Shown: piece after piece, positions 12,239 to 47,405 of the stretch
Numbering within the stretch: the stretch's first letter is position 1
Layout of the letters: each line of letters opens with the position of its first letter
Source: an uncultured Bacteroidaceae bacterium
GTDB taxonomy: Bacteria; Bacteroidota; Bacteroidia; Bacteroidales; Bacteroidaceae
NCBI GenBank assembly: GCA_905233465.1
Contig: CAJOEI010000022.1
Coordinates: 1 to 51,010, forward strand
Direction of reading: 5' to 3'
DNA length: 51,010 nt
Translations under genes and position numbers: made by a program
The notes under the pieces: generated by a model
The model's input: only the letters and a program-made list of their open reading frames with translations
The model's database searches: none
What the model was told of the DNA's origin: nothing

Positions 12239-14755
12239 TCAATGTTCAATGTAAAGGTGATACTCGCCGCCCGGTATAGTCTGCAGGTCATATTCATACA
12301 CTTTCTTCAACGTTAGCTGTGGCTTTGAGGTGAGTGCCTCTGACAGCAGCGGCTCCTTGATTTGTGCAGGAGCGAAGAGTGCATTGGGACAATCACCCTG
12401 TGCAGGCTGCAAGCCCTTACCCTTCAATTCAACGTATGAGCGCACGCGCAGCGTGCCGCCAATGGTGGAACGCACACAAGCCGACAGGAGTTCACCGTTG
12501 TTCCACTCCTCATCCACGATAAATCCACCACGTGCACGCAAGCCTTTCACCTCACCTTTCTTCCAGTCTGTAGGCAGTGCAGGCAACAGATGTACGGCCC
12601 CATCATGACTCTGCAGCAGCATCTCGCAGATACCTGCTGATACGCCGAAGTTACCATCAATCTGGAAAGGCGGATGGGCATCAAAGAGGTTGGGGTAGGT
12701 ACGACCATTGGGATACAGACTGGCTTTTGAGTCGTCGGGCAACAGGTGCAGCATATTCTTAATTACCTGGAAAGCATGGTCGCCATCGAGCATTCGTGCC
12801 CAGAAATTCGTTTTCCATCCCAGGCTCCATCCCGTAGCCATATCCCCACGCTGATTCAGCGTATTAGCAGCAGCGGCAAAGAGCTCGGGATGCGAATACG
12901 GAGATATCTGGTTGGAGGGATACAAACCATAGAGGTGGGAGATATGACGATGCTCGTCCTTGGGGTCATCAGCATCGATAATCCACTCCTGCAACTGGCC
13001 GTAACGACCTATCTGCATAGGAGGCAGATTCTTTAATTGGAAATTGAGAATCGAGAATTGAGAACTGTCGCCCAAGACCTCGGCTGCCTGCAATGTTTGT
13101 GAGAGCACATCGAAAGCTATCTGGTTGTCCATCGTGGAACCGGCTGTCACATTGGTCCCTTTTCCTCGAGGTCCATGCTCAGGCGATACCGTAGGAACAG
13201 TCATCAGCCATCCTGCGGCCTGCTGCATCTCACCAGCAACTGGATACACCTGCATATAGTCAAGCAGGAAGTCGGCAGCACCTTTCAGCACAGGATACCA
13301 TTGTTTCAGGAATTCCTTATCGCCTGTATAAAGATAATGCTGCCAGATGTGAGTGGTCATCCAAGCGCCGCCTGTGGGGAACATACCCCACGGCGTACCG
13401 TCCACAGGACCAGCAATACGCCAAAGGTCGGTGTTGTGATGAGCCATCCAGCCCTTGCAGCCATACATCTCCTTAGCGGTCTTGGCGCCCGTCTCGCTCA
13501 GATCTTTTATCATCGCGAAGAAAGGCTCCTGCGTCTCGGCAAGGTTGCCGATTAGTGCAGGCCAATAGTTCATTTCGGCGTTGATGTTGATAGTGTATTT
13601 CGAGTCCCAAGGGGCGTTCATCTTATCGTTCCATACGCCCTGCAGGTTAGCAGCCTGTCCGCCGGGCTGACTCGATGAGATGAGCAGATAGCGTCCATAT
13701 TGCATCATCAGCGCCACCATATCCAGATCGCTGGCATCCTTCTCAAAGGCAGCCACGCGCTTATCAGTCTCCAAACCCGAATTCGCAGATTTTGGCAAAG
13801 TCAGCTTTACGCGGTTGTACTGTTCGTGGTACTTCTTCAAATGGGCCTTCAGCAGTTTATCGAAACTCTTGCCTGTCACGCTGGACAGTGCCTGGTTCGT
13901 CTTCTCCGAAGGATTGCCACTGACGTCGTGGTAGTTCACAAAATTGGTGGCTGCCGTAATAAGGAACGTGGCCGTCGTGGCATCTTTAACGGTGATAGTT
14001 CCCTTGTCATTGCTGGTTACATTACCGTCAGTCTTCACATACACATTGCTTACAGCCTTCAGTCCGGACGGGACACCTTCTTGCTCCACGCCATTAACGG
14101 TGGTGAAAAGCTGGGCGTCTTTCCAACCATCGGCATACCCGTCAATCTTGCCTATCAAAGCTTCTTGATCTGCTATCTGCAACTGGCTGGTGAATTCCAC
14201 GTCAAACTCCAGCTCTTTTTTCTTGCTGGCCTTCAGCTGTACTACAATCACGTTGTCAGCCTGCGAAGCAAACGCAGTGCGCTCGTATCGCACACCTTTA
14301 TATAAATAAGAGGTTGTGGCCGTAGCATCATCGAGATTCAGCGCACGCTCATATCCTGTGACGTCCTTATGAGCGAACGACAGTTTCAGGCTACCCAATG
14401 GCAGGAAACGCATACCGTGAGGCCCTTTGACGAAATGCCTGTCAATCAGTTGTGCCGCCTCGCCCTCCTTGCCCTGAAATATCAGGCGGCGCACCTCAGG
14501 CAGATATTCCAGCGACTCCGTGCTGTTGTTATTATGGGGCGAGCCGCTCCAGAATGTCTCTTCGTTGAGTTGAATCTCCTCAGTATCAGTACCTCCATAT
14601 ATCATAGCACCCATGTGACTGTTGCCTATTGGCAGAGCCTCCAACCAGTGACTGGCAGGGCGGGCATACCATAGACGTTGGGTGGTGCCATCATTCTTTG
14701 CAAAAAGCTGTGCAGCCGACAGCACTGTCAGTAGAACAAAGATTATCTTTTTCAT
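12239..14755 (-). CDS. GH95 alpha-L-fucosidase, secreted
   Basis: An 838-aa protein with a signal peptide (1-19) and full-length GH95 homology. It should remove terminal alpha-1,2-linked fucose from host or plant glycans; some relatives act on L-galactose. Family catalytic residues are visible: N390 and N392 in [12 protein letters not shown]526 in TVSPEHGP and D700 in [10 protein letters not shown]. The N-terminal beta domain starts [18 protein letters not shown] heptad repeat adds the tract [13 protein letters not shown] at about 564-576, inside the (alpha/alpha)6 barrel region. The stop codon and last residues (YIEH) come from another heptad array. A consensus promoter lies at 14809-14841. 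There is no SusC/SusD pair nearby. The family is certain; linkage specificity is not. Confidence 0.93.
13035..13067. repeat. In-frame heptad repeat in the GH95 gene
   Basis: About 4.7 units of a 7-bp repeat (AATTGGA, AATTGAG, AATCGAG, AATTGAG, AACTG). On the coding strand it is free of stops and encodes QFSILNFQL. The same unit occurs between genes and in the permease gene at 44525-44559. Confidence 0.8.
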
Positions 14756-14808
14756 TATATCTGTTGTTTATGTTATTCTGAATATATCGCTGTATTGTTT
14801 TGTGCTTG

Positions 14809-14841
14809 CAAAGGTATGAAAAATACAACAAAACCAGCAAA
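14809..14841 (-). promoter_or_regulatory. Promoter of the GH95 gene
   Basis: Minus strand: TTTG (14841-14838), 21-nt spacer, TACCTTTG (14816-14809). This fits the Bacteroidetes consensus and places the start of transcription about 50 nt before the GH95 ATG. Confidence 0.7.
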
Positions 14842-14879
14842 GTTTTTGTTATCTTCTTAATATTGTGCCACTTTAATCC

Positions 14880-14915
14880 TTAAACTATAAACTTTAAACT
14901 ACGGCCGTAGACCGT
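14880..14915 (+). repeat. Heptad array with 3-nt-loop hairpin
   Basis: AAACTAT and AAACTTT units lead into a hairpin at 14901-14915 (ACGGCC, loop GTA, GACCGT; one C-A mismatch). It has the same layout as the elements at 18968, 23707, 38821, 40311 and 49714. Confidence 0.65.
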
Positions 14916-14958
14916 GACTATGTACGGACGATAGACATGCATTCTATGGAAGTTTTTT

Positions 14959-15112
14959 GTTCATAGTCCGGACATTTCTTTGAGTCCATGCGCACGGACT
15001 CATGAGTCCATGTGCGTGGACTCATGAGCCCATGTGCGTGGACTCATGAGCCCATGTGCGTGGACTCAATCGTCCACGTTCGTGGACAGATAAATTTGAC
15101 CGGACGATGAAC
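14959..15112. repeat. 22-bp palindromic tandem array nested in a larger inverted repeat
   Basis: Four 22-bp units (14982-15003, 15004-15025, 15026-15047, 15048-15069) and a degenerate fifth (to about 15088) follow each other without spacers. Each unit is a palindrome of the form GAGTCCA..TGGACTC. The array sits between inverted arms GTTCATAGTCCGG (14959-14971) and CCGGACGATGAAC (15100-15112), which match at 12 of 13 positions. A related GGACGATAGAC occurs near 14927. Confidence 0.85.
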
Positions 15113-46057: not shown

Positions 46058-46086
46058 ATATTATGGCTTTTATGACATTATGCTTA

Positions 46087-46434
46087 TTATGGCATATCGC
46101 GAAAATAATAATTCTTTACTTTCTGTGCTGCGGCAATACCTGCCAAACGCCCGTTGACCACGATATCTGCCACACCGTTGCCACCCAGACGGTTGGCGCC
46201 ATGCAATCCACCAGTTACTTCGCCTGCTGCATAGAGGCCTGAGATAGGCGTTCCATCGGTTTTGAGCACCTGCGTTGAGGTGTTCACGCTCAATCCGCCC
46301 GTCCACTCGCCATCCTGCAGTTGTTCCGTAACAGGCTCCTCGACTGGATTATCATCGCTGGCACACGCCACGAACATCCATAACCCGCAGATGATGAGCA
46401 ACACTCCCATCAACCATCCCAAATACCTTTTCAT
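46087..46434 (-). pseudogene. Chimeric remnant: lipoprotein signal fused to the C-terminus of a flavoprotein
   Basis: From ATG 46434 ([10 protein letters not shown]) the product is 115 aa. It begins as a lipoprotein (hydrophobic core, FVAC, then SDDNPVEEP) and switches after about 40 residues to the last 65 residues of a fumarate-reductase/flavocytochrome c type FAD protein ([41 protein letters not shown]). The FAD-binding N-terminus and the active site are absent. It looks like a deletion fusion, not a functional enzyme. A longer frame extends up to 46593 but its start has no support. Confidence 0.7.
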
Positions 46435-46549
46435 TTCCTCACACATTACATGCGCACGCCAAGCGGTGCTCCCCTCCCACGCTCGGCCCACAAGGATGCT
46501 TTTCCGGACTTCCATAACCGTGTTTGATCTAATTCGTGAAATACTGCCG

Positions 46550-46557
46550 CGAAGATA
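46550..46557 (-). promoter_or_regulatory. Promoter-like box similar to the CDF gene promoter
   Basis: TATCTTCG on the minus strand. The surrounding 45 bp (CTGCCGCGAAGATACG, AAATCCC, AAGCAG) closely match 50861-50905 upstream of the CDF gene, which suggests a shared or duplicated control region. Confidence 0.5.
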
Positions 46558-46589
46558 CGCAAAAAATCCCAAAGCAGGTTGATTTTGCT

Positions 46590-47405
46590 TCATCCCATTA
46601 CCACGTCGAGCACCATCATCAGTACGAAGCCGATTGCAAAGCCGATGGTACTGAGATTGGAGTGCTGTCCGCTGGAAGCTTCGGGAATGAGCTCCTCGAC
46701 CACCACATAGAACATAGCACCTGCGGCAAAGGCGAGCAGGTAGGGGAGGGCGGGCATCAGTAACGATGCCAACAACAGGACGGCAACGGCACCGATGGGT
46801 TCTACAGCACCGCTCAAAGAGCCAATCAAAAACGAACGCCAGCGGCTGTTACCTGCAGCCCGCATCGGCATAGAAATGATGGCTCCCTCTGGGACATTCT
46901 GTATGGCGATACCCACGGCAACTGCCAAAGCACTGGCCAACGATATGTTCGTCACCCCGCTGTCAGCTCCAGCGAACACCACACCCACAGCCATTCCTTC
47001 TGGCAAGTTGTGGATTGTTACGGCCAGGGCGAGCATCGCAGTCTTAGACAGATGCGAGCGCAGGCCCTCAGGTTTGTCCGTGCCGATGTGCAGGTGTGGC
47101 GTCAGTTCATCAATCAGCAGCAGGAATCCCATTCCAAGCAGAAATCCAACAGCCGCAGGCACTACCGACCATGCGCCAGCCTCATTGTCCATTGTCCACT
47201 GTCCATTGTCCATTGAGGCCATTGAGGCCATCTCCATCGCCGGAATCAGCAGCGACCACACAGATGCGGCCACCATCACGCCCGAAGCAAAGCCCAGTAG
47301 CGACTTTTGCACACGTGCCGACATTTCGTCCTTCATCAGAAAAACGAAACCAGAGCCAAGCATCGTGCCCAGCAGCGGAATAAGCAGTCCGATAATGAGT
47401 GTCAT
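46590..47405 (-). CDS. ZIP family metal transporter
   Basis: 271 aa from ATG 47405 ([22 protein letters not shown]), which overlaps the upstream stop (ATGA). It has about eight membrane segments. ZIP metal-site motifs are [13 protein letters not shown] and [14 protein letters not shown], with VVEELIPEA later. It should import Zn, Fe or Mn. The loop [17 protein letters not shown] is encoded by a heptad repeat (47182-47215). It is coupled to the MBL-rubredoxin gene. Confidence 0.92.
47182..47215. repeat. In-frame heptad repeat in the ZIP gene
   Basis: TCCATTG units (about five, one TCCACTG), 34 bp. On the coding strand they read [10 protein letters not shown], in the loop between the second and third membrane segments. 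Confidence 0.85.

Follow-up and report, generated by a model that had tools for sequence, protein, structure and literature searches.

Seven-base-pair repeat arrays in frame within conserved protein genes of an uncultured Bacteroidaceae bacterium, and their probable spread between loci

Introduction

How repeats whose unit length is not divisible by three enter protein genes is the question raised by a 51,010-nucleotide stretch of DNA from an uncultured Bacteroidaceae bacterium (the window). A reading made from the sequence alone had placed arrays of 7-bp units, of the same kind as those lying between genes, within at least five of its protein genes. The 139 genomes of the same genus, whose array loads range from none to hundreds, form a natural series on which this question can be followed. 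Moreover, in one loop of one gene the site can be seen both empty and filled, lengths change by 21 bp and one unit replaces another, and the filter imposed by the reading frame can be quantified. If pieces of array move without an element of their own, this would represent a little-described path from noncoding repeat to protein sequence. Cyanobacterial STRRs are dispersed 7-nucleotide tandem repeats that also occur in RNA genes, and the likeness of the present arrays to them lies in this dispersal of 7-nucleotide tandem units, as taken from their description rather than from sequence.

Results

The window comes from genome G000, whose assembly is 84.76% complete. In the window, lags 7, 14 and 21 give 13, 12 and 7 exact-match runs of at least 10, respectively; at 19 of the remaining 27 lags up to 30 there is no such run, and the top value among these lags is 5. 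A strict test for period 7, defined as 17 of 21 matches at lag 7, returned 12 arrays, seven of them within called genes. The eight tracts at issue, built of 7-bp and partly of 7/8-bp units, lie in genes for GH95, guaA (two), GH29 (two), an ArsP/HMA permease (two) and ZIP, identities that Pfam supports, and each is open in the frame of its host. The presence of in-frame heptad tracts in five genes is confirmed for all eight: every one is reported by TRF and seven pass the strict test, the exception being the degenerate guaA tract at 17925-17958 (TRF score 31, 71% matches). The features are these:

12167-12255, no strand: composite period-7 array at the gene edge between 8712-12176 and 12239-14755
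13035-13064, reverse strand: period-7 array of TTCTCAA type in the GH95 gene (12239-14755), nearly length-neutral against relatives
17321-18955, reverse strand: guaA (GMP synthase), 544 residues, assigned from Pfam and solved GMP synthases
17924-17986, reverse strand: guaA insert 2, a degenerate 7/8-bp array of 21 residues between a helix and a strand, ahead of WLAQGT
18455-18487 (strict array 18458-18488), reverse strand: guaA insert 1, with 7-7-8-7 units, in the loop preceding WAVQFHPEV
19748-19893, reverse strand: array-filled spacer of 146 bp between the helicase and nucleotidyltransferase genes
38699-38820, no strand: long intergenic composite array in which two unit families adjoin
43031-43070, reverse strand: CAATGTT-type array in the linker of the GH29 gene (42404-44185)
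43092-43124, reverse strand: AAAATGG-type array, the second in the GH29 linker
44525-44559, reverse strand: TTCTCAA-type array in the ArsP_1/HMA permease (44182-45435), nearly length-neutral
44962-44994, reverse strand: alternating CAACTCT/CAACTGT array in the same permease
47183-47215, reverse strand: ATGGACA-type array in the ZIP transporter gene
49680-49730, forward strand: intergenic CTTTAAA array with the GC hairpin cap GCGGCATAGCCGCG

The further proposal that all eight tracts are insertions is not borne out. Clean net insertions are found only in guaA, at both sites, and in ZIP, with GH29 a partial case, where the region over both arrays exceeds that of three relatives by 12-14 residues. 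The GH95 protein falls short of its relatives by 1-2 residues, and in one of these (G008, L112) a different heptad array, of TCTTCAC type, stands at the same place. The permease tract at 44525 differs in length by -1, +2 and -3 from the three homologues shown, and that at 44962 by +6 from the nearest homologue and by -2 and -28 from two others. The GH95, GH29 and permease tracts sit in variable linkers.

A first sample of 451 kb holds 26 in-gene arrays, 15 of which are spanned by a homologue. The protein of G000 exceeds the best spanning homologue by 5-15 residues in nine of the 15 and is not more than 2 residues longer in six (in one it is 60 shorter), among them GH95, the permease tract at 44525 and guaA site 1 when set against L029. 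A C10 gene with two arrays is longer by 13 and 15 residues than a 49% identical homologue from G011, a genome array-free in 120 kb. Between genes, the spacer separating helicase and nucleotidyltransferase measures 146 bp here, whereas from stop to ATG L029 has 13 bp and G002 has 11 bp; G003 and L031 likewise have a long spacer.

Insert 1 of guaA adds approximately 10 residues relative to relatives in which the site is empty. The site is also filled in the nearest relative, L029, so that the protein is not longer in that comparison. Insert 2 is missing in 13 of 14 aligned relatives (14 of 20 were compared, G005, G012 and G015-G018 being left out), and the remaining one has a shorter insert; a shorter form is seen in G003, L029 and L093. 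Two objections had been foreseen to the inserts as real additions. The first, that distant genera would carry the same tracts, was not seen in guaA, whose tracts are absent from the four other-genus genomes aligned (G013, G014, G019 and G020). The second, assembly error, is spoken against by the recurrence of the protein on several contigs, since one identical sequence represents three contigs and a near-identical copy lies on another. In the predicted GuaA model both inserts fall in low-confidence loops, at residues 158-166 (insert 1) and 326-341 (insert 2). Among homologues the top residue lag at site 1 is 5 (0.205, with 0.101 at lag 7), and at site 2 lag 5 (0.122) is slightly above lag 7 (0.110). 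We tentatively ascribe this lag to a 7+8 = 15-bp spacing, which fits the DNA of the window itself.

The ZIP array adds 13 residues relative to empty relatives. Among the 120 ZIP homologues listed, our own included, the site has at most 8 residues in 45 and is longer in 75, and where the loop is not empty it holds arrays of differing units whose lengths often change in steps of 7 residues, equal to three repeats. Residue identity reaches 0.254 at lag 7 but stays within 0.03-0.12 at lags 3-6 and 8-11 (49 distinct segments of at least 14 residues). Filled pairs with at least 90% identity, which are not independent of one another, differ in length in 455 of 716 cases, 229 of these by 7 or 14 residues. 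Identical flanks enclose different units in L251, L252, L254, L255 and the window.

Across 847,010 bases of G000 we counted 169 period-7 arrays, against 1 in a Markov-1 simulation, with 31 at period 8 and at most 16 at any other period from 4 to 15 (0-1 per period when simulated); the stretches were the longer contigs from earlier match lists rather than a random draw, and densities may therefore be somewhat high. With a gene caller that marks 89% as coding, 99 arrays lie between genes, 38 at gene edges and 32 inside genes. Three genomes of the genus (G004, G011 and G012) are array-free in 120 kb each. The data support the idea that an intergenic kind of repeat has invaded genes. They also support a filter on stops and frame: the consensus unit is stop-free on a strand for 32/32 in-gene arrays but for 62/99 intergenic ones (Fisher 6e-6), and the density of arrays in genes is 0.040 of that between genes. 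The purifying selection invoked by the sequence-only reading is weakened by these data, as reading-frame arithmetic predicts a ratio of 0.094 and so covers most of the in-gene shortage; the residual of 0.43 (Poisson range 0.28-0.63) is what is left for selection on the protein.

Sixty-eight pairs of loci have in common an exact 24-mer carrying at least two lag-7 mismatches, against a mean of 18 (maximum 36, 60 shuffles) under a null that shuffles unit order within arrays and has shared ancestry and functional constraint outside its model. Without the hairpin-linked classes there are 28 such pairs against 7 (maximum 15). A variant-bearing 22-mer common to another array is present in 10 of the 32 in-gene arrays, a figure that has no null of its own, and guaA insert 1 has a 27-base stretch in common with C3:64477 of G000 (compared by eye). 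No pair of donor and acceptor with a dated direction was found among the arrays compared. Similar AT-rich units may also converge on common segments.

Discussion

The reading that best accommodates these observations, to which we give a probability of roughly 0.6, is that a dispersed family of 7-bp (and some 8-bp) repeats copies pieces of its arrays to new sites, genes included, where they then change by unit steps and are filtered by frame and by the tolerance of the protein. Against it count the six spanned in-gene arrays whose protein gains little or no length, the lag of 5 at both guaA sites, the long spacers of G003 and L031, the narrow null of the 24-mer comparison, the possible convergence of AT-rich units and the lack of a dated donor and acceptor pair. 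In this model, pieces of existing arrays would be copied most likely by template switching at short homologies in replication or repair, a route that we propose because the searches described below gave neither a transposase-like enzyme nor a reverse transcriptase, and no flanks in common. Slippage or unequal exchange would then alter array length, and selection would clear copies from genes where they introduce a stop, shift the frame or strike structured regions. A tentative extension, which we would sooner doubt than accept, is a trans-converting network across the genome in which an in-gene array swaps its unit for another circulating one, as the ATGGACA, ATTCATA and ATGCATA types of the ZIP loop might suggest, with flanks and frame kept. 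Intergenic repeats would then keep supplying conserved enzymes with new protein loops.

It is unlikely that slippage alone accounts for the arrays, growing in place from chance seeds through a polymerase that favours 7 nt, a view that PMC4679880 attributes to Mrazek et al. 2007. Such growth would sit well with the prevalence of period 7 (42 arrays in 22 loci, the next periods having 14 each) among 80 named loci that are mostly from Bacteroidales, with ZIP lengths that often change by three units, and with ATGGAGATGGA, the sequence of empty ZIP relatives, as a possible seed. It explains poorly why variant-bearing segments are common to separate loci beyond the shuffled control. Furthermore, the empty relatives compared show no similar seed at guaA site 1, yet its insert matches another locus, and the step from spacers of 11-13 bp to an array-filled one of 146 bp is likewise hard to place. 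The heptanucleotide LSSRs of the same authors, as PMC4679880 describes them, resemble the present arrays in that the 7-nt unit is commonest and beyond chance, the distribution over species is sporadic and lengths change as by slippage, to which the ZIP steps conform and the variant segments shared between loci do not. Unlike LSSRs so described, the arrays here comprise many related unit types in one genome, share segments between loci and occupy conserved genes whose sites are empty in relatives.

That a mobile element carries the heptads, whether retro-copied or of RPE, MITE or REP type, is improbable, even though copies lie both in genes and between them, loads are patchy over the 139 genomes and arrays of the CTTTAAA class are capped by a hairpin. 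A larger element was rejected because array flanks resemble one another no more than intergenic places taken at random do: 210 flanks of non-capped arrays yield 25 similar pairs, and 305 at random places yield 63. RAYT/Y1 transposase and reverse transcriptase were rejected as movers on finding 0 Y1_Tnp and 0 RVT_1 matches in G000, where at about 85% completeness absence is no proof; RVT_1 is also absent from the array-carrying G001, G003, G005 and G008, and present in the three array-free genomes. Y-family polymerase (PF00817) was rejected as a correlate because it occurs with and without arrays. The Rickettsia palindromic elements (Ogata et al. 2000, reviewed in PMC2229807), drawn on earlier as a precedent, hold as a parallel for the way of working and fail as a class to which the arrays belong. 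As reviewed there, RPEs are likewise intergenic repeats that also occur in frame within conserved protein genes, but they are 105-146 bp long with terminal inverted repeats, whereas the 111 listed arrays span 27-122 bp and the arrays show neither shared ends nor an excess of shared flanks. The arrays are a variant of known heptamer repeats that works like RPEs without being RPEs.

Least probable of all is that the arrays are selected regulatory elements (5' leaders or binding sites), with in-gene tracts as spill-over or functional linkers: the GC hairpin of the CTTTAAA class is one-sided (right 11/20, left 0/20, background 4.5% per edge) and 10 of 21 listed hairpin-capped sites lie 20-32 nt upstream of a called gene start, but three of the 21 lie instead 17-29 nt from a gene end, arrays also stand near stop codons (median distance 18 bp), the unit type switches at one gene site (ZIP), and three genomes of the genus are array-free over the stretches compared. 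Because the hairpin list was picked for perfect stems, changes within those stems do not prove covariation. A regulatory interpretation has been given, in PMC4679880, to TAACTGA repeats upstream of starts in Beggiatoaceae, Cyanobacteria and some Bacteroidetes. As described there, these are also intergenic 7-bp arrays, stop-free on one strand only, with some within ORFs and with mobility suspected. The unit differs, as neither TAACTGA nor its complement is the cyclic consensus of any of the 111 listed arrays. The position within proteins differs too: the TAACTGA cases in ORFs of assigned function lie, in the same account, mostly at protein ends, with an RNA polymerase beta-prime-like exception, whereas the tracts described here are internal, in guaA, ZIP and others.

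Results

The source assembly, in which the window is contig C22, comprises 2.54 Mb in 57 contigs, and comparison of its GMP synthase places ruminant-gut Bacteroidales assemblies as the nearest named relatives. Lags of 7, 14 and 21 are prominent in the long exact self-matches of the window (13, 12 and 7 runs), the highest count at any other lag being 5. TRF lists each heptad tract named in the sequence-only reading, and Pfam returns the same gene identities: GH95, guaA, GH29 with an F5/8 type C domain, an ArsP_1 permease with an HMA domain, and ZIP. Several of the in-gene arrays discussed below and some further tandem arrays of the window are as follows.

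18455-18487, minus strand: guaA site 1, with 7-7-8-7 units
17924-17986, minus strand: guaA site 2, degenerate 7/8-bp array
44525-44559, minus strand: permease array
47183-47215, minus strand: ZIP array, ATGGACA type
40328-40443 and 41102-41176: period-10 array (GAAACCCTAG / TAGGAAACCC), beside period-7 arrays
37108-37162: period-9 array (CCTTAAACT), TRF
14981-15087: period-22 tandem array, TRF

A strict scan of 847,010 bases of this genome, in selected longer contigs drawn non-randomly from earlier match lists, found 169 period-7 and 31 period-8 arrays and at most 16 at any of the remaining periods between 4 and 15; a sequence of the same length simulated with a first-order Markov model gave 0 or 1 array per period. 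The arrays average 27% G+C, as opposed to 53% for the sample. With a home-made gene caller (637 genes, 89% coding), 99 period-7 arrays were intergenic, 38 lay at gene edges and 32 within genes. The period-8 arrays were intergenic (27) or at edges (4), with 0/31 in genes.

Residence in a gene had been held to need a stop-free orientation, and the counts agree: 32/32 in-gene consensus units are stop-free on a strand, versus 62/99 intergenic units (Fisher 6e-6). The first figure is near tautological, since in-gene arrays already sit in an open frame; the second is the informative one, because it means that a gene could not accommodate more than a third of the units seen between genes. Intergenic arrays are open in a mean of 28% of the six frames, and a third of net lengths preserve the frame. 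On this arithmetic alone the expected gene-to-spacer density ratio is 0.094, against 0.040 observed. The residual of 0.43 (0.28-0.63, Poisson only) presupposes equal array arrival per base and hinges on the home-made gene calls.

The proposal that arrays were inserted in frame into at least five genes holds for some of them. In guaA, where the alignment covered 14 of 20 relatives, the site-1 tract is missing from all 14 (genomes G007 and G010 carry unlike extensions there) and the site-2 tract from 13, the exception, genome G003, having a shorter related tract. Among 80 named loci, the shorter site-2 insert of G003 recurs in L029 and L093, and at site 1 L040 carries a heptad array of another kind; a third site holds an in-frame period-8 array (TCAACTCG type) in L093 and G003. 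The ZIP array adds 13 residues relative to G003 and G010, and the GH29 array region exceeds three relatives by 12-14 residues. Insertion was not borne out for GH95, 1-2 residues shorter than its relatives, or for the permease tract at 44525, both near length-neutral; these two have turned repeat-like with no net gain, via either compensated insertion or overwriting. The GH95 linker of genome G008 has another heptad array at the identical position. In the first 451 kb, 15 of 26 in-gene arrays had a spanning homologue, our protein being 5-15 residues longer in nine and at most 2 longer in six. The helicase-nucleotidyltransferase spacer is 146 bp with arrays here, versus 13 bp in L029 and 11 bp in genome G002; it is also long in G003 and L031, so shortness is not universal.

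In an AlphaFold2 model of GuaA from 32 sequences (mean pLDDT 80.9), both inserts are low-confidence stretches (158-166 and 326-341) between secondary structure elements; the largely conserved stretch 353-372 is of low confidence too. One alignment to the solved GMP synthase 5tw7 has gaps opposite both inserts.

At the ZIP site, 45 of the 120 homologues listed (7,998 candidates scored) have at most 8 residues and 75 are longer, many with peptides such as NVQCSMFNVQC and some with a single leftover unit or unrelated stretches. The strongest residue lag is 7, and site lengths of 11, 18, 25 and of 14, 21 follow 7-residue steps, equal to three 7-bp units; lengths differ by 7 or 14 in 229 of 455 length-differing filled pairs of at least 90% identity. 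The same test on guaA is not clean, lag 5 leading, which fits its own 7-7-8-7 spacing. In DNA, 30 of 32 same-genus loci were parsed, the set consisting of the top matches among 89 matching genomes and two additional loci: 21 are empty, one holds a GC-rich palindromic repeat and eight are of heptad type from several unit families, including L253, reduced to about one unit. The flanks TCAAT...AATGAGG are kept around different units in four filled loci and our own gene.

Array load varies across the genus. A three-unit pattern, which can match several times per array, occurs in 124 of 139 same-genus genomes (0 to 492 matches; 268 in ours). Sampled densities per 100 kb are 24.6 here, 8.8 in G003, 7.5 in G008 and 3.6 in G001, with no arrays in the 120 kb sampled of each of G004, G011 and G012.

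Discussion

Heptad repeats are already known as a kind. In one study, heptamers are reported to be the commonest long simple repeats in most bacterial genomes, with slippage cited as the cause, and TAACTGA arrays have one stop-free strand, their in-ORF cases lying mostly near protein ends (PMC4679880). Rickettsia elements, according to a review, lie in frame within protein genes, among them a guanylate kinase assayed for activity (PMC2229807). In searches of open-licence PMC literature, no earlier report was found that places heptad arrays in conserved Bacteroidales enzymes.

The arrays share more than a period. Exact 24-mers with at least two lag-7 mismatches are common to 68 locus pairs (shuffled mean 18.2, maximum 36, 60 shuffles), and to 28 once hairpin-linked classes are removed (shuffled mean 7.1, maximum 15); 10 of 32 in-gene arrays join this variant-bearing sharing at k=22. 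Arrays that had arisen independently would not be expected to match in variant-unit order across loci. Read by eye, the guaA site-1 array and C3:64477 (another contig) share 27 bases including the same odd 8-bp step, and the ZIP array shares an unusual CCACTGT unit with an array within another gene, C5:69680. Array flanks show no sharing above control. As candidate movers, Y1 transposases and reverse transcriptases gave 0 matches in the assembly (profiles Y1_Tnp and RVT_1), and IMS polymerases did not correlate with arrays. From variant segments common to loci, unshared flanks and these results we infer that copying probably proceeds by template switching between arrays.

One class, CTTTAAA/CTTTCAA, is capped on one side by a short GC hairpin, GCGGC-N3-GCCGC or a variant of it, in 11/20 on that side versus 0/20 on the opposite side.

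49680-49730; 23680-23725; 18956-19006 (minus strand): hairpin-capped CTTTAAA/CTTTCAA arrays

Ten of 21 listed capped sites lie 20-32 nt upstream of a called gene start, and the capped array is possibly a 5' leader element. Some CTTTCAA arrays continue directly into a TAnnTTTG box, the form of the Bacteroidetes -7 promoter element (C3:47141-47179, L177; C5:39029-39067, L184). A GC-rich palindromic repeat (CCCTCCC...GGGAGGG) occurs both between and within genes in the 847-kb sample, for example at C2:128121, with 13 of 22 binned sites inside called genes; in other species, similar GC-rich palindromic stretches fill the loops that bear heptads here, at guaA site 1 in L035 and at the ZIP site in L261.
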